Virus record (IMG/VR): IMGVR_UViG_3300042544_003935
Span: 1-22,647 of that record
Origin: a virus
DNA: 22,647 nucleotides
Reading direction: 5' to 3' (one strand)
Every line of letters starts with the position of its first letter. The first letter of the stretch is position 1. Position numbers and translations under genes: made by a program. Below the pieces are notes generated by a model that was given only the letters and a program-made list of their open reading frames with translations, had not been told where the DNA came from and searched no databases. This document shows positions 3 to 19,696 of the stretch, in pieces.

Positions 3-113
3 CACTACTTCGATGCGGAGTCCATGCAGGCGACGGCGGCGACCATGCTCAAGATCGTCGGTCGCGAGGCGGTGGCGGCAGCGCCCGTTGACAGCGCGGA
101 CGGGGAGACATGA
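3..113 (+). CDS. Terminase large subunit, C-terminal fragment (GpA-like, 5' end outside window)
   Basis: Only the last 36 residues are visible, beginning HYFDAESMQATAATMLKIVG and ending in TGA. The run resembles the C-terminal NH(W/Y)xDAE...A...LKI pattern common in GpA-type large terminase subunits, the ATPase/nuclease that packages DNA into the prohead. The position fits too: a lipoprotein, an endolysin and then a gpW-like connector and portal follow. Its TGA overlaps the ATG of the next gene (ATGA), so the two are probably translationally coupled. The frame was chosen over the other two because those read as arginine-rich or glycine-rich shadows. The identity rests on a short segment, so another late protein cannot be excluded. 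Confidence 0.5.
   Translation, partial: HYFDAESMQATAATMLKIVGREAVAAAPVDSADGET
87..92 (+). promoter_or_regulatory. GTTGAC start motif before the lipoprotein gene
   Basis: GTTGAC begins 23 bases before the ATG at 110. It lies inside the terminase reading frame, where it encodes Val-Asp. Confidence 0.5.
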
Positions 114-274
114 AGACCCTGATTCCGATCATCGCCGCTGCGCTCGCCCTGCTCGTGAGCTCCTGCACCACTCCACCGCCGATCCAAGGCGAGTTCATCA
201 ACAAGGACGGACGCATCCGGGTTCATCCGGACGGCCGCATCGAGATCGTCGTGGAACCCCGCACCGGAAAGTGA
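110..274 (+). CDS. Small lipoprotein, possible lysis accessory (spanin-like)
   Basis: This 54-residue protein has a basic start (MKT), a hydrophobic stretch (residues 4-16) and a lipobox ending VSSC at Cys19. It is therefore predicted to be cleaved by signal peptidase II and lipid-anchored. The mature part is about 36 residues and charged, with TTPPPI just after the Cys. It sits directly upstream of an M15 peptidase with a 3-base gap. A small lipoprotein beside an endolysin is the arrangement of outer-membrane spanins such as Rz1, but there is no embedded or adjacent inner-membrane partner, so that role is inference. The start overlaps the upstream TGA and is preceded by GTTGAC 23 bases away. 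The gene could also be a lysogenic-conversion lipoprotein. Confidence 0.7.
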   Translation: MKTLIPIIAAALALLVSSCTTPPPIQGEFINKDGRIRVHPDGRIEIVVEPRTGK

Positions 275-277
275 GCC

Positions 278-718
278 ATGCCCGCCGAATCCTTCAACGA
301 CTGGTTCGCCGCCCAAGGCTTCCGCCACTTCGGCGCGGGTGAGTTCACCAGCTACTTTGCCCGCGAGCGCAAAGGCGTGAAGAATAGCCCGCCGCCCAAG
401 CGGCTGTGGAAGAACCTCGTGCCCACGCTCCGGGTCGTCGATGAACTCCGCGCCTCGTTCGGCAAGCCGTGCCGCATTCTGAGTTCCTACCGTGCCCCTG
501 CCTACAACAAGGCGGTAGGCGGTGCCGCACTCAGCCAGCACCTTGAGTTCAATGCCCTGGACATCGCCTTCGATGGTGTTAGCCCGCAGCGGGTCTATGA
601 CCGGCTGGTCGAATGGCGCGCCCAGGGGAAGTTCACCGGCGGCCTCGGGCTCTATCCGTCGGCCGGATTCGTCCACATCGACACGCGGGGGCGCAACGCG
701 ACATGGAAGGGCCGTTGA
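278..718 (+). CDS. M15-family peptidase, probable endolysin
   Basis: A 146-residue protein with the zinc-site layout of M15 D-Ala-D-Ala carboxypeptidase/endopeptidases: SQH (His88), then LDI (Asp95) seven residues later, and VHID (His133, Asp135) near the C-terminus. Arg72 in SSYRAPAYN precedes the metal site, as in the family. These enzymes cut peptide cross-links in peptidoglycan. There is no signal peptide, so release would need a holin; candidates are the two small membrane proteins near 17.6-18.0 kb. The usual SQH-LxGxAxD reads SQHLEFNALD here, which keeps the metal ligands. It begins 3 bases after the lipoprotein stop, and its own stop is 1 base from the stop of the convergent HEPN gene. 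A location between terminase and portal genes is unusual for an endolysin. Confidence 0.85.
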   Translation: MPAESFNDWFAAQGFRHFGAGEFTSYFARERKGVKNSPPPKRLWKNLVPTLRVVDELRASFGKPCRILSSYRAPAYNKAVGGAALSQHLEFNALDIAFDGVSPQRVYDRLVEWRAQGKFTGGLGLYPSAGFVHIDTRGRNATWKGR

Positions 719-719
719 T

Positions 720-1268
720 TCAAGCTGGAGAAGTTCTATCCGTGAGGGCCTTATCTGTGGCTTCGACCAACCCCTTGAGGAACCTGACGGCCTTCGCCAG
801 GTCCTCACGCTTCACGGGATGAGGCTTGGACGGTCCTCCGTCGTCGGGAGCTTTCGACCGATGAACAATATCGCCGCGTATCCCGAGCAGTTCATCCAAT
901 TTCTTCTTTGAGGATGCCGTGTCATACCCAGGCCATTGCCAATTCTTCGTCACGTCCAAGCCCGCGTAATCGAGAAAGAGCTTCCGGGTTTTGTCGGAGG
1001 TGGGATTGTGAAACCGTTTCAGCTCTTCGGTAAGGCGCGCGTGCATGAACTTCTCGGCGTGACTGACGCTTCCCGAATGCCTGTCGATCACCACTTCTTG
1101 AATCAGATCTTCGACGTAGGTTTCCCATGCAGTAAGAGCCATCACCAAGCCCGCCCGTTTGAGGACCTCGGCGTTCTTCGGCGGCGGCTTTGTTTGGTTA
1201 TCGAAGTGCAACAGCAAATCCACGGCATCCTGAATGGAAACGTCAAACCTCTCTCGTGCCTTTGTCAT
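720..1268 (-). CDS. HEPN-domain protein (RiboL-PSP-HEPN type), possible RNase or defence moron
   Basis: This 182-residue, mostly helical protein carries the HEPN nuclease signature R-x4-H (Arg131, His136, in LGIRGDIVHRSKA). An N-terminal helix with AWETYVEDLIQEVV (residues 47-60) is typical of the RiboL-PSP-HEPN group. HEPN proteins of this kind are often metal-independent RNases in abortive infection, toxin-antitoxin or defence loci. No antitoxin gene adjoins it. It is transcribed against the late operon, fits exactly between the endolysin stop and the connector gene, and its composition is less GC-rich than its neighbours, all typical of a moron. The start at 1268 (MTKARERF) was chosen because the upstream extension of the open frame has no domain character and runs antisense through the gpW-like gene. 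Confidence 0.75.
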   Translation of the reverse strand: MTKARERFDVSIQDAVDLLLHFDNQTKPPPKNAEVLKRAGLVMALTAWETYVEDLIQEVVIDRHSGSVSHAEKFMHARLTEELKRFHNPTSDKTRKLFLDYAGLDVTKNWQWPGYDTASSKKKLDELLGIRGDIVHRSKAPDDGGPSKPHPVKREDLAKAVRFLKGLVEATDKALTDRTSPA

Positions 1269-1326
1269 GCCCAATCTGCTATCAGATCCAGCCCATGACG
1301 ACAAGCCGGGAGCATGCGGTTTCGCC

Positions 1327-1332
1327 GTTGAC
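1327..1332 (+). promoter_or_regulatory. GTTGAC start motif before the gpW-like gene
   Basis: GTTGAC begins 20 bases before the ATG at 1347. It is in the intergenic stretch between the divergent HEPN and connector genes, so it is not part of any stop codon or coding sequence. Confidence 0.55.
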
Positions 1333-1346
1333 ACCCGCCGCCGTGC

Positions 1347-1607
1347 ATGGCCCGCGGACTCTTCATCACCGGATTCACCGTCGCCGAAGTCCTTGCGATC
1401 CAGCAGCGGGCGAAGTCGCTCCTGTTGGAAGGCAAGACGATCATGAACTGGAACGACGCCGAAACTTCGGTGTCCAAGCAGTTCACGCTGCCGGTGGACC
1501 AGGTGCTTGAAGAATGCGGCCACGCCCTGCGGGTGCTCGACCCGGACACCTACGGCAAGCCCCGCATCGCCGCTGCCTCCTTCATCTCTGGACACCTCGC
1601 GAAATGA
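1347..1607 (+). CDS. gpW-like head-tail connector protein
   Basis: An 86-residue protein directly before the portal gene, the place of lambda W. Its middle reads like the connector family: a helix FTVAEVLAIQQRAKSLLLEGKTIMNW followed, in pieces, by SVSKQFTLPVDQVLEECGHAL, in which a helix leads into a short hairpin and a second helix. In lambda, gpW (68 residues) binds the packaged head and prepares it for tail joining. The stop overlaps the portal ATG (ATGA). No Shine-Dalgarno is visible, but a GTTGAC motif lies 20 bases upstream and supports this start. Assignment is from size, position and residue pattern only. Confidence 0.65.
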   Translation: MARGLFITGFTVAEVLAIQQRAKSLLLEGKTIMNWNDAETSVSKQFTLPVDQVLEECGHALRVLDPDTYGKPRIAAASFISGHLAK

Positions 1608-3043
1608 ACCGCCTGCAATCCATCGCCCGCCTGTTCCTGCCGCCCGTCCTTCTGCCGAAGGCATGGGCGTCGCCGTTTGAGGCCGCGAACTGGTCGCCCC
1701 GCCGTGGTGCCGTGCCCGGAGCATCGCCCTCCGATGCCCGGAAGGAACTCACCCCGGGCGTGCGCACCGAGCTGGTCCGCAAGTCGCGCTATCTTCACAA
1801 GAACTCGGGATTCGTCCGCGAGCTGGTCGCCAACATGGCAATCTACTCGACCGGCGACGGTATCCGCGTGCAGGCGCAATCGCCCAACCCCGACTGGAAC
1901 CGCGCCGCCGAGGAATACTTTTCCTATTGGTCGTCCCGCTGTGAAGTCACCCGACGCTTCTCGTTCGAGGAATGCCAGGCGCTCGTCTGCCGGGGCATGG
2001 ACATCGACGGCGAATACTTCGTCCACAAGACCCGCGATCTCGACGGCGAGCCGCGCCTCCAGTTGATCGAGAGCCACCGCATCGGAGATGAGATGGGCTC
2101 GAAGGAAACCGTGGACGGCATCGGCCTCGATGCGTTCGGTGCCCCGGTGTTCTACCGCGTGCTGCAGGATGACAACACGGCCCGCGACCTCCCGGCGCCG
2201 GCCATCCTTCACATTCATGAACCGGAGTGGGCCGGCGGCGTGCGCAACCACCCGACGATCCAGCATTCGATCAACCACATCCTCGACGAGATCGAACTGC
2301 TCGCCCTGGAGAAGCATGCGGTGAAAGACAACGCCGACGTAGCCCGCATCTTGAAAACGGCGCGGGGCGAGATCGACGACAACGGCGATTTCGTGGTCGG
2401 TGGCGCAGGTGGTGGCGGGGAGGCCAGCGACCCGGTCACCTTGCAGCGCATTGTCGGCGGCAAGCTGGTGGCGCTCAAACCCGACGAATCGCTCGATAGC
2501 TTTCAGTCAAACCGCCCGTCGCCCACGTTCACCGGCTTCCTCGAACACCTGCGGCGTGATTCCGCCCTTGGCATGATCCCGTTCGAGTTCGCGGCGGATT
2601 CCAGCAAGGTCGGTGGCGCGGGGGTGCGTCTTATCGTCGCCAAGGCCGACCGGCGTTTCTCTTTCCGCCAGATGATCCTCGAACGGCGACTCATCCGTCC
2701 GGTGTGGGCCTACCTTGTCGGCGATGCGATTGCCCGCGGTCTGCTGCCTCCAGTCCAGGGCTGGTGGAAGGTGGCGACGGTGCCACCCAAGCGCGTGACC
2801 GTGGACGCCGGCCGCGAGGCCCAACAGAACCGTGCCGACGTGGAGGCGGGACTCAAGACGCTCTCCGACCACTACGCAGAACTCGGTGCCGACTTCCGCG
2901 AGGAGATCGAACGCCGTGCCACCGACGCGAAGCTGATCCTCGAAACCGCCGCGAAATACGGCGTGCCTCCGGAAATGCTCTGGAAGCCGTCCGGTGGATC
3001 ATTCGCCCCGTCCCTGCCCGACGAACCGCCGCCCGGTCGTTGA
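1604..3043 (+). CDS. Phage portal protein (lambda gpB family)
   Basis: A 479-residue protein of the size and sequence style of lambda-type portals. The N-terminal half carries TPGVRTELVRKSRYLHKNSG followed by FVRELVANM and later the MDIDGEYFV...RLQLIESHRIGDE pattern typical of this family. The portal dodecamer is the DNA-entry vertex, docks the terminase and later holds the connector and tail. The ATG at 1604 overlaps the stop of the gpW-like gene; the open frame extends upstream but that part is antisense or shadow to gpW. The N-terminus contains a hydrophobic segment (LFLPPVLLPKAW), which is not expected to be a signal peptide here. Its TGA is embedded in the GTTGAC motif serving the next gene. 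Confidence 0.92.
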   Translation: MNRLQSIARLFLPPVLLPKAWASPFEAANWSPRRGAVPGASPSDARKELTPGVRTELVRKSRYLHKNSGFVRELVANMAIYSTGDGIRVQAQSPNPDWNRAAEEYFSYWSSRCEVTRRFSFEECQALVCRGMDIDGEYFVHKTRDLDGEPRLQLIESHRIGDEMGSKETVDGIGLDAFGAPVFYRVLQDDNTARDLPAPAILHIHEPEWAGGVRNHPTIQHSINHILDEIELLALEKHAVKDNADVARILKTARGEIDDNGDFVVGGAGGGGEASDPVTLQRIVGGKLVALKPDESLDSFQSNRPSPTFTGFLEHLRRDSALGMIPFEFAADSSKVGGAGVRLIVAKADRRFSFRQMILERRLIRPVWAYLVGDAIARGLLPPVQGWWKVATVPPKRVTVDAGREAQQNRADVEAGLKTLSDHYAELGADFREEIERRATDAKLILETAAKYGVPPEMLWKPSGGSFAPSLPDEPPPGR

Positions 3044-3044
3044 C
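3039..3044 (+). promoter_or_regulatory. GTTGAC start motif before the S49 protease gene
   Basis: GTTGAC begins 20 bases before the GTG start at 3059 and contains the portal TGA stop. It supports GTG as the start, because no ATG is available at that spacing. Confidence 0.55.
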
Positions 3045-3058
3045 ACGCGGGCAGGTGC

Positions 3059-4333
3059 GTGACTTCCGACCTGCTCCAGAACCGCGAATGGCTGATCCAG
3101 CCCGACGCCCTCCACGCGATGGCCGCGACCACGCGTGCGTTCCATGACCGGGGCGGCAACCTCCCGGCATCGGCACCGGCCAGCGACCTGCTCGCCATCG
3201 AGGACGGCATCGGTGTGGTCGCCATCAACGGGCCTATCCTCCGCAAGCCGGGGATTTTCGCCCGCGTGTTCCTCGGTGCCACCGACTCGGAGGAGATCGG
3301 CGCTGCCATCCGTGAAGCAGGCGGGCGGGGCGATGTGAAGGCGGTCTTCCTCGACATCGATTCTCCCGGCGGCACCGTGCTCGGCACCCCGGAACTGGCT
3401 GCCGCCGTCGCCACGCTCAATGAGAGCAAGCCGGTGTATGCGTTCTCGTCCGGGCTCATGTGCTCGGCGGCCTACTGGATCGCCAGCCAGGCCCGAGCCG
3501 TCTATGCCACGCCCTCCGCACAGGTCGGATCCATCGGCGTGGTGCAGGCGGTGATCGACAACTCTGCCGCCCTCGATAAGGCGGGCATCAAGGTCGAGGT
3601 GTTCGCCGTCGGCAAATACAAGTCCATCGGGGCACCCGGCACTCCGCTCACCGACGACCAACGCGAGTTGATCCGCTCGAATCTTGGCGAGATCGCCCGC
3701 GACTTCCACGCCGCCGTGCTCGCCAGCGGACGTGCCATCCCGACCGAGGCGATGGAAGGCCAGACCTTCAGCGGGCGGCAAGCCCAACGGCTCAACCTCG
3801 CGGGCATGGTCCCGGACCGGGCCGAGGCGCTGCGGCGGCTCCGCGTCTATCACGCTGCGGTTGACACGGGAGCACGGGCGATGAGCACCGCTCCAGAAGA
3901 CCTCCTACTCGAAGCCCGCACCCAGGTCGCCGACCTCCAACGGGATCACCAAGCCCAGACCGAACTTCTCAACGAGGCGTCGGCCAACCTCGAACGCCTG
4001 CGCGGCGAGGTCGAACTGCTTTCCGCCGAGATCGACACCCTCAAGTCCGAGCGCGACACGGCCACCGCCGAAGTCACCACGCTGCGGACCCGCGTCACCG
4101 AACTCCAGGCGTCGCAGGCCGACTTCGACAAGCGCGTCCAGACCGAGGTCGCCCGCGTGGTCGCCTCCACCGGCACGACCACCCCGGCTCAAGTGACGCC
4201 CGCCGGGGAGTCCACCCAAGCCGCCGACCTCCACGCGCAGTTCGCCGCCATCAAGGACCCGGCCGAACAGACCGCCTTCTGGCGGAACCTCACCCCGCAA
4301 CAGCAAGCCATCATCCTCAAACACCAAGCCTGA
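3059..4333 (+). CDS. S49 (SppA/gpC-like) prohead protease with C-terminal scaffold domain
   Basis: A 424-residue protein starting at GTG. Residues 45-260 are an S49 serine peptidase: strand VVAINGPI, then AVFLDIDSPGG (96-105), the nucleophile region SSGLMCSAAYW with Ser136, and GKYKSIGAP with Lys188 as the probable general base of the Ser-Lys dyad. Residues 275-424 are a charged coiled coil (heptad-rich, roughly 280-370) and a C-terminal tail rich in Gln and Lys, typical of a capsid scaffold. In lambda, gpC is the maturation protease and Nu3, made from the same frame, is the scaffold. The same arrangement is proposed here, with an internal start at 3881. It lies 15 bases after the portal stop and just before the capsid gene. 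Confidence 0.9.
   Translation: MTSDLLQNREWLIQPDALHAMAATTRAFHDRGGNLPASAPASDLLAIEDGIGVVAINGPILRKPGIFARVFLGATDSEEIGAAIREAGGRGDVKAVFLDIDSPGGTVLGTPELAAAVATLNESKPVYAFSSGLMCSAAYWIASQARAVYATPSAQVGSIGVVQAVIDNSAALDKAGIKVEVFAVGKYKSIGAPGTPLTDDQRELIRSNLGEIARDFHAAVLASGRAIPTEAMEGQTFSGRQAQRLNLAGMVPDRAEALRRLRVYHAAVDTGARAMSTAPEDLLLEARTQVADLQRDHQAQTELLNEASANLERLRGEVELLSAEIDTLKSERDTATAEVTTLRTRVTELQASQADFDKRVQTEVARVVASTGTTTPAQVTPAGESTQAADLHAQFAAIKDPAEQTAFWRNLTPQQQAIILKHQA
3860..3865 (+). promoter_or_regulatory. GTTGAC motif before the internal scaffold start
   Basis: GTTGAC begins 21 bases before the in-frame ATG at 3881 and lies inside the protease coding sequence, where it reads Val-Asp. The same motif and spacing mark ordinary gene starts in this phage, which argues that the internal ATG is used. 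Confidence 0.55.
3881..4333 (+). CDS. Internal-start capsid scaffold protein (Nu3-like)
   Basis: In-frame with the S49 protease, starting at Met275 of that protein (MSTAPEDLLLEARTQ), 150 residues. The predicted product is almost entirely scaffold: a long coiled coil with repeated Leu/Ala heptads followed by a Pro/Thr linker (TGTTTPAQVTPAGE) and a short C-terminal helix (FAAIKDPAEQTAFW), where scaffolds normally contact the coat protein. Lambda Nu3 is produced by exactly this kind of nested start within gene C. The evidence for use of this ATG is the domain boundary at that point and the GTTGAC motif 21 bases upstream. No protein data are available, so expression as a separate product remains an inference. 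Confidence 0.65.
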   Translation: MSTAPEDLLLEARTQVADLQRDHQAQTELLNEASANLERLRGEVELLSAEIDTLKSERDTATAEVTTLRTRVTELQASQADFDKRVQTEVARVVASTGTTTPAQVTPAGESTQAADLHAQFAAIKDPAEQTAFWRNLTPQQQAIILKHQA

Positions 4334-4342
4334 TAGAACGCC

Positions 4343-5236
4343 ATGTCCAACACCCTCACCAACGTCAAAGACATCAAGGTCGCGCAACGGGCGCTCATGC
4401 CCTTCACCGCGAACCTGCTGCCCGTCACGGCGTTCTCGACCAACTTCGGTCCCCAGCAGGCCGACAAGGGCGACACCGTGCGAGTCCCGCTGGTCGGCGC
4501 CCCGTCCGGGTCGAGCGATTTCGCCGGTGACTACACCGCCAACGCCGATTCGACGGTCACCACCATCCCGGTGACGCTCAACCGCCACAAGTTCAAGACC
4601 GTCCACGTCACGGCCCGCGAGGTGTCCGAGACGGCCATGGATGTGCTCGACGCCCTTGTGGAAACCGCCGCCCAGCAACTCGCCCAGGACGTGCTGCTCG
4701 ACATCATGTCGGTCATCACGCAGGCGAACTTCGGCGGTTCGCTCCCGGCCGTCGCCGCGACCAACTACAATTACAAGAAGGTCCTCGAAGCCCGCGAGAA
4801 GTGCGGGGAAGCGAAGATGCCAGCCTCGCCCCGGTCGCTCGTGCTGGACGCCGGCCACTACACCAACCTGCTCGCCGACGACATCGTCGCCAAGAGCTTC
4901 AACCTGAACCTCAGCGCCCCTGGCGTCACCGAGGGTCTCATCAAGCGGCTCGCCGGATTCGACCTCTTCGAGACGGTGGTGATCCCGCCTGACCACGCCG
5001 AGAAGCTCGTCGGCTTCGCGGTTCACCCGAGCGCCATCGCGGTGGCCATGCGCTACCTCGTGCCGGTCGCCGAATACCAGCAGTCCGGCGCGGTCACCGA
5101 TCCGCAGACCGGCATGACCTTCGGCTACCTGCGCTTCACCGACACTCGCGCCAACAAGGTGTTCGTCACCATCGAGTGCCTCTACGGCTTCACGGTGGGC
5201 AAGACCGACGCACTCAAGCGCGTCGTCAAACCCTGA
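4343..5236 (+). CDS. Major capsid protein
   Basis: A 297-residue protein following the protease-scaffold gene by 9 bases, the standard place of the coat gene. The N-terminal part (TNVKDIKVAQRALMPFTANL, then VTAFSTNFG) resembles major coat proteins with a P22/HK97-type fold in which the first segment binds scaffold, followed by VRVPLVGAPSGSSDF and a long helix ETAAQQLAQDVLLDIM. The large size without an obvious cleavable delta domain agrees with use of a separate scaffold. No GTTGAC motif or clear Shine-Dalgarno precedes it; the leader ends GATAGAACGCC, and a similar AGAACAACGCC precedes the next gene. This protein should be the most abundant product of the operon. Confidence 0.88.
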   Translation: MSNTLTNVKDIKVAQRALMPFTANLLPVTAFSTNFGPQQADKGDTVRVPLVGAPSGSSDFAGDYTANADSTVTTIPVTLNRHKFKTVHVTAREVSETAMDVLDALVETAAQQLAQDVLLDIMSVITQANFGGSLPAVAATNYNYKKVLEAREKCGEAKMPASPRSLVLDAGHYTNLLADDIVAKSFNLNLSAPGVTEGLIKRLAGFDLFETVVIPPDHAEKLVGFAVHPSAIAVAMRYLVPVAEYQQSGAVTDPQTGMTFGYLRFTDTRANKVFVTIECLYGFTVGKTDALKRVVKP

Positions 5237-5269
5237 GCCATCCAAACCAACACCTAGCAGAACAACGCC

Positions 5270-5785
5270 ATGATTCCCTTCAGCTTTACCGGCAACGCCG
5301 GCTCCACCCTCAGCCATGTGGTTGTCCCCGCCAGCGGGCGCGACCGTGTGCGGATCCAGTATGCGAGCGCGACCTCCGACAAGGCCGCCTCGCTGCTGAC
5401 CTTCCGCGCCCAGTCGCGTGCCACCACCGTGACGGCCACCAGCGCGGCCAACCAGACCGTCATCAACGCGCCGCCTTACACGGGCGCCGCCGCGAACGAC
5501 GTGGTGGTTCTGTTCTCCAACGCCACCGGAACCGGCGTGCGCGGAGTGGTCGCCTCGGTCGATGCCGGGGCCGGAACGATCACCCTCAACGCCAACCTCG
5601 GCCTCGCGCTGGCACCGGGCGACACCGTCTCGCTCATGACCTCCCGCGGCCAGGTGCCGGTCGGTGCCACCACCAAGGAGGTCAACGCCCCCACGGTCTT
5701 CGCCGTTAACGAGGGGCCTGCCCTCATCGAACTGGACGGCACCTCGGCCTGCCGCATCAACCTGGTGGCGGGCGAGTATTCCTGA
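5270..5785 (+). CDS. Putative capsid decoration or head protein
   Basis: A 171-residue, beta-rich protein with many Ala, Thr and Val residues and no recognised catalytic motif. It lies between the major capsid gene and the head-tail connector, next to a terminator, so a capsid decoration or stabilising role (as lambda gpD) is the most reasonable guess. In lambda, however, D lies before the coat gene, so the order differs. The segment VVASVDAGAGTITLNANLG reads like a beta-sandwich edge. The start at 5270 follows a 33-base gap and has no GTTGAC motif. It may instead correspond to lambda FI, which has no fixed sequence signature. Confidence 0.6.
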   Translation: MIPFSFTGNAGSTLSHVVVPASGRDRVRIQYASATSDKAASLLTFRAQSRATTVTATSAANQTVINAPPYTGAAANDVVVLFSNATGTGVRGVVASVDAGAGTITLNANLGLALAPGDTVSLMTSRGQVPVGATTKEVNAPTVFAVNEGPALIELDGTSACRINLVAGEYS

Positions 5786-5817
5786 GCAAACCTTTCCTTG
5801 GTTCGATTGGTCATCGC

Positions 5818-5856
5818 CACCCTCTCCCGGGAAACCGGGAGGGGGTGTTTGCTTTT
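5818..5856 (+). terminator. Rho-independent terminator inside the late operon
   Basis: A 13-bp stem (5818-5830 with 5835-5847, one G-T wobble) closes a GAAA tetraloop and is followed by TTTGCTTTT. It lies 32 bases after the stop of the decoration gene, separating capsid from connector and tail genes. It would make the downstream genes less abundant, which fits the high demand for coat protein. Confidence 0.9.
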
Positions 5857-5859
5857 GAC
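5854..5859 (+). promoter_or_regulatory. TTTGAC variant of the start motif, directly after the terminator
   Basis: The motif begins 20 bases before the ATG at 5874 and overlaps the T-tract of the terminator. This is the only member whose first base is T instead of G. Read as a -35 box it has no -10 partner, because a 17-base spacer would put that inside the gene. Confidence 0.45.
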
Positions 5860-5873
5860 AAGCCTACCGCTGC

Positions 5874-6185: not shown

Positions 6186-6969
6186 CGACGCCGTCCGTTT
6201 CACCGCCAAGCTCAAGGGAGCATCCGACGTGGCCCGCTTGTTGCGGCGTCACCCGGAGAAGGTCGGCCGCACGCTGGAATCCCTGGTGAAGCAGGAGGCA
6301 CGCGGCCTCGCCGTGGAACTGGCCCGCAACACTCGGCCCTTCGGGTTCTCGGAGAAGGCGCGAAAGCTGGGTGAAGGTGCGGTGGCCGGCGACATCAGCG
6401 GTGTCTTCGCTTTGCCCTCCGATGCCTTCGAGGAAATCCGGAAATCCGATCCCGAGGCCGCCGACCGCTTCTGGGCGAACATCCAGAACCGGCGCTTCGC
6501 GCGCGCACAGAACGCGCTTCGCCAGTCGGGTTCCGGTTGGAAGGACCTCACGGTAGGCCGTCTCGATCCGAATCTCCACCAATGGGGGCAGCTCGGAGCA
6601 GCCAAGCCGAAGCAGATCGTCACCAGCAAGAAGGCGCGGGACAACTACATCGCCAAGATCCAGAAGCGGGTCGGCTTTGCCAAGGGCTCGTGGATCCAGG
6701 CCGGCAAGTCCATCGGCGGGCGCATCCGTGGGGCGGTTCAATGGGCGACCCGTCACAAGCAGGCCCCCGGCAGCGCGGTGGTGAAGACCGGTGCCAAGGC
6801 TTCCGTCACGCTGGTCAACAAGCTCGACTACATCGAGGACGTGAGCACCTGGAAGGGGATCAACCTCGCATTGCAGATCGCGGCGGCACGTTTGCGCAAG
6901 GCGCTGTCCACCTCGTTGCTCAAGATCAACGAACGGGCGAACCAGGCGCTGCGACGCCGTGCCGGTTGA
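6178..6969 (+). CDS. Minor tail protein, tail-end (Z-like)
   Basis: A 263-residue, strongly basic, Arg/Lys- and Ala-rich protein in the lambda Z position. The N-terminal part (FTAKLKGASDVARLLRRHPEKVGRTLE) is the kind of start seen in tail completion proteins related to HK97 gp10 and gpZ. It is longer than lambda Z (192 residues), with an extra segment around residues 70-180. Role: completes the end of the tail so that it can join the head. The ATG overlaps the end of the preceding gene; the TGA is part of the GTTGAC serving the following gene. Function is inferred from order and pattern, not from a diagnostic motif. Confidence 0.6.
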   Translation: MSDDAVRFTAKLKGASDVARLLRRHPEKVGRTLESLVKQEARGLAVELARNTRPFGFSEKARKLGEGAVAGDISGVFALPSDAFEEIRKSDPEAADRFWANIQNRRFARAQNALRQSGSGWKDLTVGRLDPNLHQWGQLGAAKPKQIVTSKKARDNYIAKIQKRVGFAKGSWIQAGKSIGGRIRGAVQWATRHKQAPGSAVVKTGAKASVTLVNKLDYIEDVSTWKGINLALQIAAARLRKALSTSLLKINERANQALRRRAG

Positions 6970-6970
6970 C
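6965..6970 (+). promoter_or_regulatory. GTTGAC start motif before the U-like gene
   Basis: GTTGAC begins 22 bases before the ATG at 6987 and contains the TGA stop of the Z-like gene. It decides the start of the next gene, where the open frame itself extends far upstream. Confidence 0.55.
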
Positions 6971-6986
6971 GCGCCGCCCGTGGCCG

Positions 6987-7418: not shown

Positions 7419-7422
7419 TGCG

Positions 7423-7428
7423 GTTGAC
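7423..7428 (+). promoter_or_regulatory. GTTGAC start motif before the tail tube gene
   Basis: GTTGAC begins 23 bases before the ATG at 7446 and lies in the intergenic gap, after the U-like stop. Confidence 0.55.
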
Positions 7429-9490: not shown

Positions 9491-9496
9491 GTTGAC
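9491..9496 (+). promoter_or_regulatory. GTTGAC start motif before the tape measure gene
   Basis: GTTGAC begins 20 bases before the ATG at 9511, just right of the low-GC accessory gene. It is in the GC-rich phage part of the gap, so the accessory insertion left the tape measure leader intact. Confidence 0.55.
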
Positions 9497-9510: not shown

Positions 9511-11271
9511 ATGAGCGCCCTGACCGTTACCCTTGGAGCCGACATCACCGCCCTGAAGCGGGCCATGGCTGGCGCATCGGAACTCGTTTCGGCATCCGCC
9601 CGACGCATGGGCAAGATCACCGGCGCGGGACTGGCGGGGCTCGGCAAAGGTGGCGCGGCGGCGCTCAGCAAGGGCTTCTCGGTCGCGGGCACGGCGCTCA
9701 AGGCAGGCGTGGGTGCTGCGTTGGCGGGTGGCGCGGCGGCGATGGGTGTCGGCGTGAAGGCGGTCAACGCAGCCGCCGACTTCGAGCAGACCAAGGTGGC
9801 GTTTTCCACGCTGATCGGCGATGTGGGCAAGGCCGAGGAAACGCTGGCGAAACTTCGGGAACTTGGTGCCAAGACGCCATTCGAGTTTCCCGAACTGGCC
9901 GACGCCGGCCGCAAGCTTATCGCCTTCGGGGAATCCGCCGACTCGGTGCCCGAAACCCTGCGACGCATCGGCGACGTGTCCGCGGGCGTGCAGGCACCGG
10001 TCAACGAGATCGCTGAACTCTACGGCAAGGCACGGGTGCAGGGTCGGTTGTTCGCCGAGGACATCAATCAGCTCACCGGCCGCGGCATCCCGATCATCCA
10101 GGAACTTGCCAAGCAGTTCGGCGTGTCAGACTCCGAGGTGAAGAAGCTCGTGGAATCCGGCAAGGTCGGCTTCCCCAACATCGAGCGGGCGTTCATCGAC
10201 ATGACCTCCCAGGGCGGCAAGTTCTCGGGCATGATGGAGGCGCAGAGCAAGACGACCTCGGGCCTGTTCTCCACCCTCAAGGACACGATCAATGAGGTGT
10301 TCCTCACGCTCGGGACTCCGATCAACGACGCCATCCGTCCCCTGGTCGAGCAGGCCATTGGACTGGTCCAGAAACTCACGCCCCTCGCTGCGGAAGCAGG
10401 CAAGAGGGTGAAGGAGGCCGTCATGTTCGTGATCGCCGCGTTCAAGAGCGGCCAGCTTCTCGATCTCGTCACCTCGGGTTTGAAGCTCGCCTTCGCGGTG
10501 GGGGTGAACGCCTTGGTCAATGGCTTCCGCACCGCCATCGAGTTCTTCTGGAACCTCCTAACCGATGGAGCGATGTGGAAGAGCCTCGGCACGACGCTGC
10601 TCGGTCTGGTGGCCGGCTTCGGTGCCGCTTTGCTCAACGCGTTCCAGACGCCCATCGTCTATCTGCAATCCGGGATGGAATGGGTGGTGGCGCACCTGCT
10701 CAAGGGCCTGCTCAAGATTCCGGGAATGTCCGACCTGCTCGGCTTCGAGGCCGGCGACGTGGAAACCGATTTCGGCCGCATCCTCAAGGACCGGCAGGAA
10801 ACCGGTGCCGAACTCTTCGGCATGAACTTCAAGGACATGGCGGAGGAAGCTCAGGGACTACTCGGCAAAGGCGCTCCCCAACTCGGCGAACGGGTGGCGG
10901 AAGCAGCACGGAAGGCGGGCGAAACCACTGGTAGCGAACTGATCGACACCAGTGGCCTGCGGGACAGTTTCGGCAAGGTGGTGGCCTCCATCCGCGACAC
11001 GATGCCCAAGCCCGAGGAGATGAAGCAGGCGGCTACCGCTGCGGCGAAGGTGACGACCGACAATACGCCTGCGGTCGCCAAACCGGCCGCCTCCACGCTT
11101 GCGCCCATCGTCACCTCGCTCGGCAAGGTGGGCGGCGGCGGATACTCGACCGGAGCGCTGGACGCCCAACGCGAGAACAACCGGCTGACCAGTGAAACCA
11201 ACCGGATCTTGCGCGACATGAGCGAACGGATGAAGCCGGGGACCGGCACCTACGTTCCGGTATTCGGTTGA
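9511..11271 (+). CDS. Tail tape measure protein (H-like)
   Basis: A 586-residue protein with the N-terminal tape measure domain: after an Ala/Gly-rich helical lead-in (residues 1-90) comes FEQTKVAFSTLIGD, the KTPFEFPEL region, and LTGRGIPIIQELAKQFG, hallmarks of the family. Two hydrophobic helical stretches follow in the middle (around residues 310-350 and 355-385), of the kind that may enter the host membrane when DNA is delivered. The C-terminus is Ala/Thr/Lys-rich. Tape length sets tail length: about 0.15 nm per residue would suggest a tail of roughly 90 nm, a rough guide only. The ATG has a GTTGAC motif 20 bases before it; the TGA is part of the next one. Confidence 0.92.
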   Translation: MSALTVTLGADITALKRAMAGASELVSASARRMGKITGAGLAGLGKGGAAALSKGFSVAGTALKAGVGAALAGGAAAMGVGVKAVNAAADFEQTKVAFSTLIGDVGKAEETLAKLRELGAKTPFEFPELADAGRKLIAFGESADSVPETLRRIGDVSAGVQAPVNEIAELYGKARVQGRLFAEDINQLTGRGIPIIQELAKQFGVSDSEVKKLVESGKVGFPNIERAFIDMTSQGGKFSGMMEAQSKTTSGLFSTLKDTINEVFLTLGTPINDAIRPLVEQAIGLVQKLTPLAAEAGKRVKEAVMFVIAAFKSGQLLDLVTSGLKLAFAVGVNALVNGFRTAIEFFWNLLTDGAMWKSLGTTLLGLVAGFGAALLNAFQTPIVYLQSGMEWVVAHLLKGLLKIPGMSDLLGFEAGDVETDFGRILKDRQETGAELFGMNFKDMAEEAQGLLGKGAPQLGERVAEAARKAGETTGSELIDTSGLRDSFGKVVASIRDTMPKPEEMKQAATAAAKVTTDNTPAVAKPAASTLAPIVTSLGKVGGGGYSTGALDAQRENNRLTSETNRILRDMSERMKPGTGTYVPVFG

Positions 11272-11272
11272 C
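11267..11272 (+). promoter_or_regulatory. GTTGAC start motif before the first distal tail gene
   Basis: GTTGAC begins 23 bases before the ATG at 11290 and includes the tape measure TGA. Confidence 0.55.
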
Positions 11273-12664: not shown

Positions 12665-12667
12665 AAC

Positions 12668-14620: not shown

Positions 14621-14624
14621 TCCG

Positions 14625-14630
14625 GTTGAC
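14625..14630 (+). promoter_or_regulatory. GTTGAC start motif before the tail fibre gene
   Basis: GTTGAC begins 20 bases before the GTG start at 14645, in the gap after the stop of the large tail protein. Confidence 0.55.
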
Positions 14631-14644
14631 AGCAGGGCACGGGC

Positions 14645-15841
14645 GTGAAGCTCCACGTCGATCTTGAAACCTTCGAACTGATCGAGGGACCCGGATTCCG
14701 CAACCCGGTCACCACGTTGCGGTTCAAGCGCGGAGACGCGGCGAAGCTGGAGGTCGCTTTCCTCCGTGACGGCACCACTCCCGAGGCCATCGGCGATCCC
14801 GTTTCGCTGGAAATGCGCTTCGGCGTGAAGCCGCGCAACCGCTATGACGTTGGCTACCTCGTCCACACCGCTGACTGGACGATGCCAGCCCCCGAAACGG
14901 AGAGCCCGGTCTATCAGTGCTCGCCCAGCTTCAACACCGAGGAACTCAACTCGGCGCTCAACGTCGGGTCCGCAACCGCCACCGAGCTGTCCGAGATCAC
15001 CCTCATGGGTGAAATCACCTGGCGCGAGGGCAGCGCGGAGCCGACCAGCACCCGCACCTTCCTCGTGATCGTCGAGAACGACGTGAACCGCGGGGACGAG
15101 GGAGTGCCCGAATCCGCCGAGCCCGCCTATCCGGCACCGGAGGGGATCGAGCTTGTCGCCCGCAAGGGTGTCGCGAACGGGTATGCGGGTCTGGATTCCG
15201 GCGGCAAGGTGCCCGCCGCGCAGCTCGCCATCAACGCCGCCTCGATCTCCGATTCGACCACGACCGGCCGTGCGCTCATCAAGGCTACCTCCGCCGCGTC
15301 GGCCCGCAGCACCATCGGCGCGATGGCCAATCCGTCGCTCAGCGGGGCACCGATTCACGGCCTGAACCAGTTCGGATCGTGGGTGGGCATCACCCAGGGG
15401 CAGCGTGCCGTGCTCTACTCGCCCTACGACTACGCTTCCTACCCACTTCCGCAGTTCTTCAAGGGGCTGGCGCTCTACGTCCTCGATCCAACGTATGCAT
15501 GGTATGGTTACACGCTCGCCGACCTCGTGAGCTACATGGAGTCCTACCACGGCGGGTCGGCCTTCTGGGGGCAAGTGCTCACCCAAGGAACCGGCGAATG
15601 GACCATCCCCGGATTCGCAGTCCTCAACCTCAACGGCAGTTCGCCGATCCCGGTCGGGGCGCTCTTTTCCTGGCCCGTGCTCACCAGCCAGCCCGGCCGC
15701 CAGAATCCCGGCTCCGAGGTCTATCTCGACCCGAACGGCATGGCCACCCTGCGCTTCCTCAACACGGGCGTCGTCTCGGTCCACGGCGACCTGAGCACGA
15801 CCGGAGGCGGCTACGGTTCCTACTATCCTCTCATCCCATGA
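14645..15841 (+). CDS. Tail fibre protein
   Basis: A 398-residue protein starting at GTG. Residues 1-155 form a beta-rich N-terminal domain (VTTLRFKRGDAAKLEVAFLR) like baseplate-binding heads of fibres. Next comes the classical fibre-linker pattern NGYAGLDSGGKVPAAQLAIN (about residues 179-198) and then TGRALIKATSAASARSTIGA, a motif found in many fibre shafts. The C-terminal 160 residues, with LYSPYDYASYPLPQFFKG and a Gly/Ser/Tyr-rich end, are the probable receptor-binding tip. The stop overlaps the next gene's start (ATGA). The start is supported by GTTGAC 20 bases upstream. Confidence 0.82.
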   Translation: MKLHVDLETFELIEGPGFRNPVTTLRFKRGDAAKLEVAFLRDGTTPEAIGDPVSLEMRFGVKPRNRYDVGYLVHTADWTMPAPETESPVYQCSPSFNTEELNSALNVGSATATELSEITLMGEITWREGSAEPTSTRTFLVIVENDVNRGDEGVPESAEPAYPAPEGIELVARKGVANGYAGLDSGGKVPAAQLAINAASISDSTTTGRALIKATSAASARSTIGAMANPSLSGAPIHGLNQFGSWVGITQGQRAVLYSPYDYASYPLPQFFKGLALYVLDPTYAWYGYTLADLVSYMESYHGGSAFWGQVLTQGTGEWTIPGFAVLNLNGSSPIPVGALFSWPVLTSQPGRQNPGSEVYLDPNGMATLRFLNTGVVSVHGDLSTTGGGYGSYYPLIP

Positions 15842-17253
15842 AACTGACCTGCTTCATCTTCACGCACGCCCCCGAGGCACCGCTGCTCGCCCGCTGCATC
15901 GCCACCGCACGCGCCGGGAAGGGAACCCATGACGCCTCCTTCGTCGTTGTGGAGGACGGCAACGCGCCGCTTCCACAGGCCACCCGGACGGCTCTCGCCA
16001 CCAATGGCGTGCCGGTGGTCCGCACGGTCCAACCCCGGCGCGGCAACCTCCGGGGCGTGCGTTGGTTCGCCGAACAGATGGCCGTGATGTCGGACCATGC
16101 AGGCGAAGCCGACCTCGTGCTCAAGATCGACCCCGACACGCTTGTCCTGTCGCTGGCCAACGTGGTCAAGCCGCTGGTGGACAAGCCTGCTCTGGCGGGT
16201 GCCGGTTACGGCCGCAACGACAGCTACGTCTATGGTCCGTGCTACGCATTCCGCCGCTGGATCGTGGACTACATGGCCGCGAAGTATGCCGTGCTGGCCG
16301 GCGTCGAGCAGGAGGAACTGCGGACGGCCACCGCGATCACCAACGGCGGCACGATGGCCCGACCGGTCCACGAGGACGTGTTGCTGAGCCGCGAGGCACT
16401 TGCCTTCGGTGGCCTCGACTTCGGCCAGAAACGCGCCCGCTGGCGGCACGACAAGGACGGCCGCGACATGGCTGCGGTGAAGGCGCGTGTCGATGTGGTG
16501 CTGTTCGGCAACCCCGGCCCGGTGTCCCACGGCGGCGGCGAAATCCGTCCGGTGATAGCACGGGTGATGGATTCGTTCCTCGCTGCAGACACCGCCGCCG
16601 AGCCGCTGCCCGAGGGACAGAAACCCGTCGTGGTCCTCGGCCTCGGGCCCGGGCGTTCCGGCACCTCGTTCATGGCGACGCTGCTCAACATGCAGCCGGG
16701 TGCCTGGATCAGCCACGAGAGCTACTCGCCGGTGCTCCTCAACCTGCCCAATGTGGACGGCTTCGCCCAGCGCCTCGTCGAGGGCCGGCCGGGACGCCGC
16801 TTCGTCGGCGACTTCACCCCGGCCAACACCAGGATGGCCGCGGGCATGACCCGCTGGCTCGTGTCGCAGGGGTATCCGGTGAAGCTCGTCTCAACCGAGC
16901 GCGACGACGACGAACTCGTCGCCTCGTGGGTGGCGATGATGGAGCGGCAGGAACACGACCCGTTCGTGACGGTCCCGCCGGATGGATGGGTCCACCGGGG
17001 ATGGTCGAAGGCGTTCCCGAAGTTCGACTCGATCACCACCCGCGAAGGACGCGTGCGCGCCTACCTCGCCTGGTGCCGCGATCATGTCGCCGCCCTGGAG
17101 ACCGAGTTCCCTGGCATGGTCCGCTCGATTGACACCGCCGACATGAACGACCCGGCGGAGATCAACGCCTTGCTCGACTGGATCGGCATGCCGGCCACCG
17201 GTCGCCGCCTCGAATTGCTCGGAACCCCCGTGAACAACAGCCCGACCCCATGA
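15838..17253 (+). CDS. Glycosyltransferase-sulfotransferase fusion
   Basis: A 471-residue protein that appears to join two enzymes. Residues 1-245 look like a GT-A glycosyltransferase: opening KLTCFIFTHAPEAPLLARC, a Rossmann-like half and the acidic metal/nucleotide motif KIDPDT (Asp98, Asp100), followed by a conserved-looking NGGTMARPVHED stretch (169-180). Residues 262-471 look like a PAPS-dependent sulfotransferase: VVVLGLGPGRSGTSFMATLL contains the phosphosulfate-binding loop (Arg273, Ser274, Gly275, Thr276, Ser277), and TERDDDELVASW carries the 3'-phosphate-site Arg355 and Ser363. The start overlaps the fibre stop and the end overlaps the DUF4376-like start, so it is within the fibre cluster and probably coupled. 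A role in modifying fibre, virion or host surface glycans is inferred. The single frame is unbroken over both domains. Confidence 0.75.
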   Translation: MKLTCFIFTHAPEAPLLARCIATARAGKGTHDASFVVVEDGNAPLPQATRTALATNGVPVVRTVQPRRGNLRGVRWFAEQMAVMSDHAGEADLVLKIDPDTLVLSLANVVKPLVDKPALAGAGYGRNDSYVYGPCYAFRRWIVDYMAAKYAVLAGVEQEELRTATAITNGGTMARPVHEDVLLSREALAFGGLDFGQKRARWRHDKDGRDMAAVKARVDVVLFGNPGPVSHGGGEIRPVIARVMDSFLAADTAAEPLPEGQKPVVVLGLGPGRSGTSFMATLLNMQPGAWISHESYSPVLLNLPNVDGFAQRLVEGRPGRRFVGDFTPANTRMAAGMTRWLVSQGYPVKLVSTERDDDELVASWVAMMERQEHDPFVTVPPDGWVHRGWSKAFPKFDSITTREGRVRAYLAWCRDHVAALETEFPGMVRSIDTADMNDPAEINALLDWIGMPATGRRLELLGTPVNNSPTP

Positions 17254-17606
17254 ACCTCCGTTCCGCCATCGCCCGCATCGAAGGAGCCTTTGCCGCCCGC
17301 ATCCGGCAGGGCATCACCATCGGAGGCGTCACCCTGCGTGCCGCCGATTCCGACCGCACCGCCTTCACCCAACTGCTGACCATGCTCAACGAGGCAGAAC
17401 GCCTCGGCATGTTGCCGCCAACCACCACCATCGCCGACAAGGACGGTGTTCCGCACGAGCTGCCGACCGCACAGGTCCGGGCGATGCTGGTCCAATACGG
17501 CGGCATCTATCAGACGCTGTGGATCCACCGAGTCAGCCTGGAGAACGCCGTGAAGGCCGCCGCCGATGACGCCGCCCGAGCCGCCATCCCGATCACCTTC
17601 GCCTGA
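17250..17606 (+). CDS. DUF4376-like protein, tail fibre associated
   Basis: A 118-residue protein with the pattern of DUF4376: an N-terminal helix, ITIGGVTLRAADSDRTAFTQLL in the expected G(V/I)T...DSxR position, a central Lys-Asp-Gly (ADKDGVPHELP) and a C-terminal helical stretch with LENAVKAAADDAARA. Such proteins are commonly found after tail fibres in temperate phages, often as fibre assembly or tip segments. The start overlaps the previous stop (ATGA), and the next gene is 2 bases away. No membrane segment is present. Confidence 0.6.
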   Translation: MNLRSAIARIEGAFAARIRQGITIGGVTLRAADSDRTAFTQLLTMLNEAERLGMLPPTTTIADKDGVPHELPTAQVRAMLVQYGGIYQTLWIHRVSLENAVKAAADDAARAAIPITFA

Positions 17607-17608
17607 CC

Positions 17609-17797
17609 ATGCGTGCCCCCTTCGACATCGAGTTCGCCCTCAAGGGCATCGTCGGCACCGCCTCGCCGCTGCTCGGAGTGATCACCTCCATGCAGGAGCA
17701 AGTCGAGTGGCACCTGCGTGTAGCGTCGCTCTTCGTCGGCCTGCTGGTCGGCGTGCTCTCGGTGATCGGAATGTGGCGGAAACTGCGGAAGCGTTGA
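17609..17797 (+). CDS. Small membrane protein, possible holin
   Basis: A 62-residue protein with one clear membrane segment near its C-terminus (VASLFVGLLVGVLSVIGMW, about residues 38-56), followed by a positively charged tail (RKLRKR). The N-terminal half has a weaker hydrophobic segment (LKGIVGTASPLLGVITSM), so two passes are possible. Small, one-to-two-pass proteins with a basic C-terminus in a phage late region are good holin candidates. The endolysin lies far away at the left end, which is unusual but known. The stop is within the GTTGAC motif of the next gene. Confidence 0.6.
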   Translation: MRAPFDIEFALKGIVGTASPLLGVITSMQEQVEWHLRVASLFVGLLVGVLSVIGMWRKLRKR

Positions 17798-17798
17798 C
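17793..17798 (+). promoter_or_regulatory. GTTGAC start motif before the second small membrane protein
   Basis: GTTGAC begins 23 bases before the ATG at 17816 and includes the TGA of the preceding gene. Confidence 0.55.
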
Positions 17799-17815
17799 AC
17801 GGCGAACGGGTCGCC

Positions 17816-18007
17816 ATGAAAGCGCTCAAATACATCAGCCTGGTCGGCAAGATCGCCGGCTTCGTGTCCGCCCTGAACGCCATCCCGTTCGTTGATCCGA
17901 AAGTGGGCCTGATCGTCTTCGCCGCCGCGTCCCTGCTCAAGGACGTGGCGAACCGGGTCGGCGATCTGCTCGATGACGGCCAGCCGAACCAAAGCTTCAA
18001 GGGTTGA
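17816..18007 (+). CDS. Second small, partly hydrophobic protein (holin or antiholin candidate)
   Basis: A 63-residue protein with two moderately hydrophobic stretches (YISLVGKIAGFVSALNAIPF and VGLIVFAAASLL), a charged C-terminus and no signal-peptide cleavage pattern. Together with the gene before it, it forms a pair of tiny membrane proteins at the end of the late operon, as in holin/antiholin pairs. Function is inference only. The motif 23 bases upstream supports the start; the stop is followed by a strong terminator. Confidence 0.55.
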   Translation: MKALKYISLVGKIAGFVSALNAIPFVDPKVGLIVFAAASLLKDVANRVGDLLDDGQPNQSFKG

Positions 18008-18008
18008 C
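18003..18008 (+). promoter_or_regulatory. Orphan GTTGAC copy at the end of the late operon
   Basis: This copy contains the last TGA of the late operon, but the terminator begins about 20 bases later and no open frame follows. It is either a relic of a lost gene or a chance copy. Confidence 0.3.
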
Positions 18009-18022
18009 CCGACACTCCAACA

Positions 18023-18060
18023 AAAAGCCCCCGGACGGAGAGATCCATCCGGGGGCTTTT
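18023..18060. terminator. Bidirectional terminator between late operon and integration genes
   Basis: A perfect 13-bp stem (18023-18035 with 18048-18060, AAAAGCCCCCGGA / TCCGGGGGCTTTT) has A and T tracts on both sides. It can stop the rightward late operon and also the leftward integrase-excisionase transcript, both of which end within about 20 bases. Confidence 0.92.
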
Positions 18061-18073
18061 GTTTGGAACGAAG

Positions 18074-18349
18074 TCAGGTCCGTGTGACCGGCTCGATCTG
18101 ATAGTGCTTCTTGATCGCTTCAAGAACCGCGTCGAACTCGTAGAGGTAGAACCGGGGAGTGATCTGGATGTAGGGAATCAACCGTTTGGCCATCCAGGTA
18201 TCGACGGTGCGGGTGCTGACCGACAGTCGCTTGGCGAGTTCCTTCTTCCGGATGACCTTTGGCTGGACGATTTCCGCAGAGCCGGAGGTCATCATGGCTT
18301 CACTTGAGTTCATCGTCTGGACGCTTTGTGTGAGAATGGTCGCTTTCAT
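18074..18349 (-). CDS. Excisionase-family helix-turn-helix protein
   Basis: A 91-residue protein with a MerR/Xis-type winged-helix pattern: VIRKKELAKRLSVSTRTVDT (HTH, about residues 32-51) then WMAKRLIPYIQI, leading to FYLYEFDAVLEAIKKHY. The first 30 residues are an extra, Met- and Ser-rich segment. Such proteins (excisionase/DNA-binding family) bend attachment-site DNA and favour excision. Its ATG overlaps the integrase stop (ATGA), so int and this gene form one operon on the minus strand. A GTTGAC motif lies 26 bases upstream inside the integrase frame. It may instead be a small transcriptional regulator. Confidence 0.75.
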   Translation of the reverse strand: MKATILTQSVQTMNSSEAMMTSGSAEIVQPKVIRKKELAKRLSVSTRTVDTWMAKRLIPYIQITPRFYLYEFDAVLEAIKKHYQIEPVTRT

Positions 18350-19674
18350 GGTTGCGCATCTTTGGTCGTGTCAACGACCGGCGACTCAATTTCGGAGATC
18401 ATCCGTTTGAGCTTTTCCCGCAGGCTCCACTTCAGCTCCGGCGGCACCCACCCGTCGGGCGGCATGATTGAAAACCACGCCTTTGCCGCCGCTTCATCCA
18501 CGACCTCCCGGTAGTGGCGGAAGATCATTTTCGGCGAGTTGCCAGCCTCCAGAGCTGTCCGTGCCACGTCGCCTGTCAGTGCCACGCGATAGCTGATGAA
18601 CGAGTGTCTGAGGCCATTCTGACGCCATCCGCCGGGAACTTTCGCCTTCACGGCGGTATCGCTCAAAGCGCCCGACGCGTCCGTGATCGTGATGACCGGG
18701 CCGGTTTCCCCGCGCCATGGGGCGAGCCACGCCTTGAGGTTCTCCGACAGGGGGACCAACCGTCGTGCCGCCGTCTTCGCCTTGCGACCGGCGATCTCGA
18801 TGTGGCCGCGGTCCCACTTGAAATCCTCCCAGTGGAGTCGCCCGACCTCGGCAGAACGCACCCCGGAGAATCCGCCGATGGCGATGAGCGGCAGGATTCG
18901 GGCATTGGCAGCGAGTAGCATGTTCTGCATCTCGTCGGGGGTGAAGATCGCGATCTCTGTCTCGGGAGCCTTGAACGTCTCGCTCAACTCGGCTGCCGTC
19001 TTGCGGTCGGGGTGGAGGTAGCCCTGGCGTTTGGCGAAGCTGAACATCGTGACGAGGTTGCGCCGGATGCCGTTCTTGCTGACCGGACCGAGTTTCCTCA
19101 AACCCGCCAGGAACTTGTTGATGTCCGCGACGGTGACGTCGGCGATGTTGCCCCCGACGACATCGGTGAATCGCTTGAGGCTGCTGGTGGCGTTCCGGAC
19201 GTAGATGTCGCTCACGCCTTTCCGCTTCAGCGACTCGACAAACTCGACAGCGACCTGAGTCACGGGTTTGACGGCGAACAGGTCGGTGCGATTGGCTTGG
19301 TAGAAGCGCACGGCATCGGACAGCGTGATTCCCACAACCACCGATCTGGCACTCACCCACTCATCGACCGCGGCGGCAAGCGTGACGCCGAATTTTTCCG
19401 CTTGGCGCTGGCAATGCCAGAGCAGCTCAAGGTCCCGCTTGGTCGCCTCCCCTCCGATCACCCAGCCGTTGGCGATCTTCACCGTGATCTGCTGGGCGAC
19501 CATCCGCGCCTCATCCATGCAGGCAAAGCTGCGGCGGCGCCCTCGGCCGCCCTCCTTCCAATAGAGCGTGAACTCTGAGTAGCCATCTTTCCGATTGATC
19601 GTGTAGATGCGGACCCTGGCCGGGCCAGTTCCGATTTCCACGACACTGCTGCGACGTTTGCGTTTCCGGGTCAT
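18346..19674 (-). CDS. int: Tyrosine recombinase / phage integrase
   Basis: A 442-residue protein with the layout of site-specific tyrosine recombinases: an N-terminal arm-binding part (basic start MTRKRKRR), a core-binding domain (about 100-215) and a catalytic domain. Visible catalytic residues are Arg273 (GVRSAEV), Lys298 or Lys300, Arg356 (NGLRHSF) and Tyr388 (RHYREVV). Two positions usually His are Asn (Asn353 before the box II Arg; Asn379 in GNSP). This may be a natural subgroup rather than a defect, because the frame is intact. It is next to the chromosomal flank, as expected for an integrase. The start at 19674 was chosen for its GTTGAC (22 bases upstream) and basic opening; the longer open frame upstream runs through noncoding DNA. 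Confidence 0.9.
   Translation of the reverse strand: MTRKRKRRSSVVEIGTGPARVRIYTINRKDGYSEFTLYWKEGGRGRRRSFACMDEARMVAQQITVKIANGWVIGGEATKRDLELLWHCQRQAEKFGVTLAAAVDEWVSARSVVVGITLSDAVRFYQANRTDLFAVKPVTQVAVEFVESLKRKGVSDIYVRNATSSLKRFTDVVGGNIADVTVADINKFLAGLRKLGPVSKNGIRRNLVTMFSFAKRQGYLHPDRKTAAELSETFKAPETEIAIFTPDEMQNMLLAANARILPLIAIGGFSGVRSAEVGRLHWEDFKWDRGHIEIAGRKAKTAARRLVPLSENLKAWLAPWRGETGPVITITDASGALSDTAVKAKVPGGWRQNGLRHSFISYRVALTGDVARTALEAGNSPKMIFRHYREVVDEAAAKAWFSIMPPDGWVPPELKWSLREKLKRMISEIESPVVDTTKDAQP
18370..18375 (-). promoter_or_regulatory. GTTGAC motif before the excisionase-like gene
   Basis: On the minus strand GTTGAC begins 26 bases before the ATG at 18349, inside integrase codons for Val-Asp. 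The spacing is outside the 20-23 range of the others, so it is a weaker case. Confidence 0.35.
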
Positions 19675-19690
19675 AGACCCCGGTTTTCGA

Positions 19691-19696
19691 GTCAAC
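19691..19696 (-). promoter_or_regulatory. GTTGAC start motif before the integrase gene
   Basis: On the minus strand GTTGAC begins 22 bases before the integrase ATG at 19674, in intergenic DNA. It shows that the motif is not tied to the late operon or to one strand. Confidence 0.55.

Follow-up and report, generated by a model that had tools for sequence, protein, structure and literature searches.

A TTGAC-based tag before late-gene start codons in phages of Verrucomicrobiota, and its candidate two-gene reader

The late promoters of phage T4 carry TATAAATA at -10 and use a sigma2-like factor, and a sigma70-type promoter consists of a -35 box, TTGACA, followed ~17 bases on by a TATAAT-like -10, the whole lying upstream of the gene. 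The stoperators of cluster A mycobacteriophages are not placed at a fixed distance from start codons. The nearest precedent for the element described here is the SAS of cluster K mycobacteriophages, a 13-bp GGGATAGGAGCCC immediately before start codons, partly Shine-Dalgarno-like and with an unknown reader (PMC3203893). LmbU, known as a regulator of actinobacterial antibiotic clusters, is an activator that binds CGCCGGCG, a GC-rich palindrome (PMC6510168). Phage-specific start tags have been seen earlier but are not understood, and in the open-access literature we found no description of the present one.

Like the cluster K SAS, the GTTGAC motif is phage-specific, asymmetric and oriented, is fixed upstream of many starts and is absent from the host. 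Unlike the SAS it is a TTGAC-based hexamer at -20 to -24 with no Shine-Dalgarno match and no fit to GGGATAGGAGCCC, and it occurs mainly at late genes and the integrase, in company with a candidate reader pair. It shares with the T4 late promoters, which are served by phage factors, the placing of one signal near many individual late-gene starts; restriction to late genes, close to each gene start, was found here as in T4, the exceptions being the integrase and a Vsr-like gene. It differs in having no TATAAATA-like -10, the TTGAC lying 20-24 bases before the start and a GC-rich spacer following. That spacer also sets it apart from a sigma70 promoter, whose -10 position would here fall in the coding region. 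With the cluster A stoperators it has in common dispersed asymmetric sites in one orientation and an HTH reader (a candidate in our case), whereas GTTGAC keeps a fixed distance to start codons. What is new is a tag that is mainly a late-gene one, common to two capsid lineages, with a sister sequence in Akkermansia phages and a two-gene candidate reader whose pattern of presence and absence is clear. The question addressed, how phages of bacteria poor in Shine-Dalgarno sequences distinguish late from early genes, is now reduced to a few bench tests.

The motif in the window and in related phages

The window is the whole stretch of DNA that was analysed, 22,647 nt of virus record IMGVR_UViG_3300042544_003935. 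The original prediction placed twelve copies of the hexamer 20-23 bases before gene starts, and re-reading all of them from the sequence gave just these distances: 20 in five cases, 21 in one, 22 in two and 23 in four. Eleven are on the plus strand. GTTGAC at 87..92, within the terminase-tail reading frame upstream, stands 23 bases before ATG 110, and the copy at 1327..1332 stands 20 before ATG 1347, the start of an 86-aa gene directly 5' of the portal gene. At 3039..3044 it lies 20 before GTG 3059 of the S49 protease, with the TGA of the motif serving as the portal stop, and at 3860..3865 it lies 21 before ATG 3881, nested in the protease gene. The variant TTTGAC at 5854..5859 is 20 before ATG 5874. 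Further GTTGAC copies occupy 6965..6970 (22 before ATG 6987, the upstream TGA stop inside the motif), 7423..7428 (23 before ATG 7446), 9491..9496 (20 before ATG 9511 of the tape measure), 11267..11272 (23 before ATG 11290, the tape-measure TGA stop inside the motif), 14625..14630 (20 before GTG 14645) and 17793..17798 (23 before ATG 17816, again with the upstream TGA stop inside). The minus-strand copy at 19691..19696 is 22 before ATG 19674 of the integrase, matches GTTGAC-N11-GG and is conserved in G001, G002, G004 and G010.

The number of copies is only mildly raised: the two strands of the window together contain 19 GTTGAC, where shuffles give 11.1 +- 3.0. The striking part is their placement before starts: chance would put ~0.05 copies at the twelve positions, and on the plus strand of the phage part 10 of 11 GTTGAC serve starts, the sole exception being 18003.

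Portal and capsid searches provided 150 related viral loci, and with L001, the window's first 600 bases, the set comprised 151. Positional enrichment in related phages had been proposed as a check on the prediction, and the peak at 19-24 bases before starts is there: across the 151 loci, 394 of 557 dereplicated plus-strand GTTGAC have an ATG at that distance downstream. In the same loci control hexamers without the TTGAC core (GTTGAT, GTCGAC, GATGAC, GTTCAC and GTTGCC) gave 3-24 each and no peak. The relatives also use the minor variants ATTGAC and TTTGAC, the latter with a peak of 49 at distance 20. When hexamers were scored at dereplicated starts called with a simple gene caller, GTTGAC at -24..-20 was the most enriched hexamer both in the core group, with 79/283 starts against 0.75 expected, and in the Chthoniobacter-type group, with 35/259 (0.35 expected). 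In the Akkermansia group GTTGAC was absent from the enriched words and TTTTGACA occurred in 10/66 starts. Since GTTGAC prevails in most groups and TTTTGACA in the Akkermansia phages, we take the core of the motif to be TTGAC(A). These data confirm that the start-linked motif is real and far beyond chance, and it can be used as a start-site predictor when annotating these phages.

Alignment by spacer class brought out a second block, GG at +17/+18 counted from GTTGAC, whose distance to the hexamer is constant while the start codon shifts by 0-4 bases. The GG itself is present in 105/232 of a dereplicated set, and in the 14-base spacer class the G's stand at +16 and +18. Position +6 takes A, G or T, with C nearly absent. 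The consensus is [G/T]TTGAC(A)-N11-GG, and its first base lies 20-24 bases before the start codon. A further copy had been reported 26 bases before 18349; it has no GG and is off the pattern. The prediction that this is no classical -35 box holds up, as the 14 bases after it are rich in GC and a -10-like hexamer is lacking. GC content in the last twelve bases before the start is 75-79%, and the spacer has more CCGG, CGGC and CCGCC than its shuffles do. Two other candidate features were rejected: a conserved hairpin inside the spacer, which had no pair covariation, and a fully leaderless mRNA always starting at +20, a position not consistently purine at spacers 15-17.

Late genes, hosts and other prophages

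In complete prophages the motif goes with the late genes: G001:C6, for example, has it at none of its 11 called early genes and at 12 to 13 of 27 genes running from a ParB-like gene through the tail region, as well as at the opposite-strand integrase. Outside the late block it is also found at the Vsr-like nuclease gene and at one more gene in G004; the Vsr-like gene (phrog_503; L218:18816-19211 and homologues) keeps its motif even as an early-region gene or a neighbour of the terminase. Among late genes, those starting 0-14 bases after the upstream stop never carry the motif (0/67), much as the original prediction had said of genes that closely follow an upstream stop, and at gaps of 15-19 it is present in 28/32, because the TGA of gTTGAc doubles as the stop of the upstream gene. 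The stop codons noted within some copies are thus a matter of layout. The motif is found at the majority of late genes without translational coupling to the preceding gene, and at the integrase. The gene at 3881-4333, probably a scaffold, is nested in frame within the S49 protease gene, as in the lambda C/Nu3 arrangement, and in the Chthoniobacter prophage G010 its counterpart is a separate gene with its own motif.

Capsid relatives were confined to genomes of Verrucomicrobiota (Akkermansiaceae, Verrucomicrobiaceae, Chthoniobacter and its kin), one record being titled only 'bacterium'. The prediction had left it open whether the signal is phage-specific or shared with the host lineage. A host-shared initiation or leader signal across the whole Verrucomicrobiota lineage would suit the poverty of phages and hosts alike in Shine-Dalgarno sequences, and Akkermansia is on a published list of Shine-Dalgarno-scarce bacteria, in agreement with what we see at host starts (PMC10783764). 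However, in 13 such host genomes GTTGAC-N14-17-ATG is overall no commoner than the control GTTGAC-N30-33-ATG, the motif was found at 1/223 and 0/149 host starts, where Shine-Dalgarno sequences were not enriched either, and it is missing from other prophages of the same order. We consider sharing with the host very improbable; it is the phage-specific half of the prediction that stands. Two patterns in individual genomes, a weak TTGAC excess at -36/-35 of G002 host starts and several G009 genes with GTTGAC-N30-33-ATG and a similar stretch downstream, suggest host promoters of leaderless or short-leader type.

Among nine HK97-capsid prophage regions from the same order, eight have little or no motif. 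The exception, G129, has about eight late genes with the motif and no early gene with it. The protease-capsid of G170 is 67% identical to that of G129, and G170 has no motif and open, A/C-rich leaders. Such leaders are also the rule at the early genes, in the host order's other prophages and in the hosts, all of which lack the motif and mostly lack a Shine-Dalgarno sequence too, and the idea that GTTGAC generally replaces Shine-Dalgarno is not supported by this comparison. With early genes lacking it and late genes and the integrase having it, the motif is not a general phage initiation signal. As a separate observation, L252/L280 (G163:C12), alone among the prophage regions examined, has GGAGG at -16..-12 in 7/40 starts, which hints at Shine-Dalgarno use by one phage in a host order otherwise poor in it.

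A gene pair that accompanies the motif

Comparison of gene content brought up a non-structural gene common to G129 and the window-type phages, with a second gene beside it. In profile searches covering 18 genomes the two, which encode an HTH protein and an LmbU-like protein, appeared as an adjacent pair in the motif-bearing prophages of G001, G002 (three times), G003, G004, G005, G007, G010, G011, G012 and G129. The three pairs of G002 go with three motif-bearing capsid copies, and G001:C9 also carries the pair. It was not found in the whole genomes G112, G156, G170, G076, G106 and G161, whose HK97 prophages are without the motif. G163 has the pair and a motif-poor HK97 prophage on different contigs, the pair contig being an early-region fragment on which the sole motif gene is the Vsr-like one. 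Motif and pair are common to prophages of two capsid lineages. Within one of these, viral contigs with a G129-type capsid, the eight with the pair have 73/142 TTGAC at start spacing against 19 at control spacing, and the five without it have 8/64 against 5 (each figure a sum over per-contig rows). When viral contigs were scanned with the G129 and G010 LmbU-like proteins and with the G170 capsid, few or no matches resulted. The co-occurrence test across genomes was run on this pair; among genes close to the late region, the AAA clamp-loader-like, tRNA-methyltransferase-like and ParB-like ones were set aside as readers. One gene of the first kind, for an AAA clamp-loader or DnaC-like protein (L219:2931-3683), directly precedes the late region in the G001 prophage and has relatives in G004, G002 and G010.

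The longer protein of the pair matches the LmbU family model NF038070 with 119.7, 80.4, 106.8, 95.7 and 83.2 bits (E 1e-34 to 2e-22), all below the curated cut-off of 125. Unlike the known LmbU, it is phage-borne and encoded beside an HTH gene. Folding from a single sequence gave a poor model of the HTH protein, and the protein's matches among solved structures (sigma factors, KorA, sigma4 domain) were not significant, the best E being 0.29. In window-type phages the pair belongs to the early region and precedes the late genes, and in L447, a sister contig of the window phage with 100% identical portal and capsid, it lies upstream of the window region. A position in the early region before the late genes is typical of a late activator.

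Judging by this co-occurrence, the motif is most likely read by the phage-encoded HTH and LmbU-like pair; alternatively, pair and motif could merely have been inherited together. Were the pair to act as a repressor or roadblock, binding its sites and silencing late cistrons in the manner of the cluster A stoperators, one would expect what we see in an asymmetric site with one orientation, dispersed across many genes and accompanied by an HTH protein. The LmbU-like gene, moreover, carries the motif itself wherever it does not overlap the HTH gene (G129, G005 and G011:C11), as in autoregulation. A roadblock, however, needs neither the near absence of copies away from starts nor the strict distance of 20-24, and the pair of window-type phages sits in the early lytic region. 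An operator role seems unlikely to us.

Transcription or translation

Because the co-occurring pair combines an HTH protein with an LmbU-like transcription regulator, action at the level of transcription is suggested. Our preferred reading, to which we would give about an even chance, is a phage-specific late-gene control element read by the pair, our best guess being a compact late promoter. The HTH protein would contact TTGAC and the LmbU-like protein the GC-rich spacer, and the mRNA would begin at the start codon or a few bases 5' of it. In 42 families the message from 0 to 40 relative to the start codon is less structured than shuffled sequence by 1.9 +- 0.3 kcal/mol, whereas the GC-rich sequence upstream would fold onto this region. 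This contrast, the kind of protein in the pair and the fixed GG lead us to lean slightly toward action on DNA over action on RNA. Against a promoter, TTGAC is to our knowledge too near the start for any known RNA polymerase geometry, an AT-rich -10 is lacking, and the closer complementarity of the spacer to the gene's own first codons than to those of sister genes would be unexpected if the spacer is untranscribed, unless it reflects a DNA dyad.

That complementarity bears on an explanation at the level of translation, in which a phage factor would recognise GUUGAC in the mRNA, with a hairpin downstream in many genes whose loop holds the start codon, and would recruit or release the ribosome at late cistrons in hosts without Shine-Dalgarno sequences. 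The tight linkage to start codons, the nested in-frame start at 3881 included, agrees with this, and so does the need for the motif only where coupling to an upstream gene is impossible. Spacer and first codons covary: over 41 families natural combinations differ from within-family swapped ones by -0.69 +- 0.16 kcal/mol, compared with -0.16 for shuffled spacers (paired t -3.4), and some families, such as that of the Vsr-like gene, have clear compensatory hairpins. The effect of the start-codon hairpin is significant in these families, but it is weak and modest in size; the complementarity is absent at spacer 17 and not above shuffles in a smaller set, and the balance of G-U against A-C mismatches favours neither RNA nor a DNA dyad. 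The complementarity hints at action on RNA or at a DNA dyad. Motif starts are also more structured (MFE -16.3 vs -10.0), which hinders initiation without Shine-Dalgarno pairing. Early genes of the same phages manage without the motif, and the associated proteins resemble DNA binders. Pairing with 16S rRNA, the route by which the motif had been suggested to serve as a ribosome signal, finds no footing in two hosts of such prophages, G004 and G010: their 16S contains neither GUCAAC nor UGUCAA and has a normal CCUCC end. We regard a translational signal as possible but rather doubtful.

Returning to the compact late promoter, its components can be put together tentatively, with rather less than even confidence, as what would be a new class of phage late-gene switch, in which the HTH and LmbU-like proteins would together read the TTGAC tag and a GC-rich dyad overlapping the start codon, promoter and start codon being one element; or, under the same heading, as an RNA-level start tag that would replace Shine-Dalgarno at late genes only.

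Two minor observations concern the window itself. On the minus strand at 720-1310, between the M15 peptidase gene and the 1347 gene, which face the other way, lies a gene with a RiboL-PSP-HEPN domain (Pfam E 1e-27), possibly defence or toxin cargo. Beyond the integrase, 19937-22647 encodes a GntR/LacI-type regulator and a putative secreted protein with a TWDASPDPGV stretch, and this right end of the window looks like host DNA.
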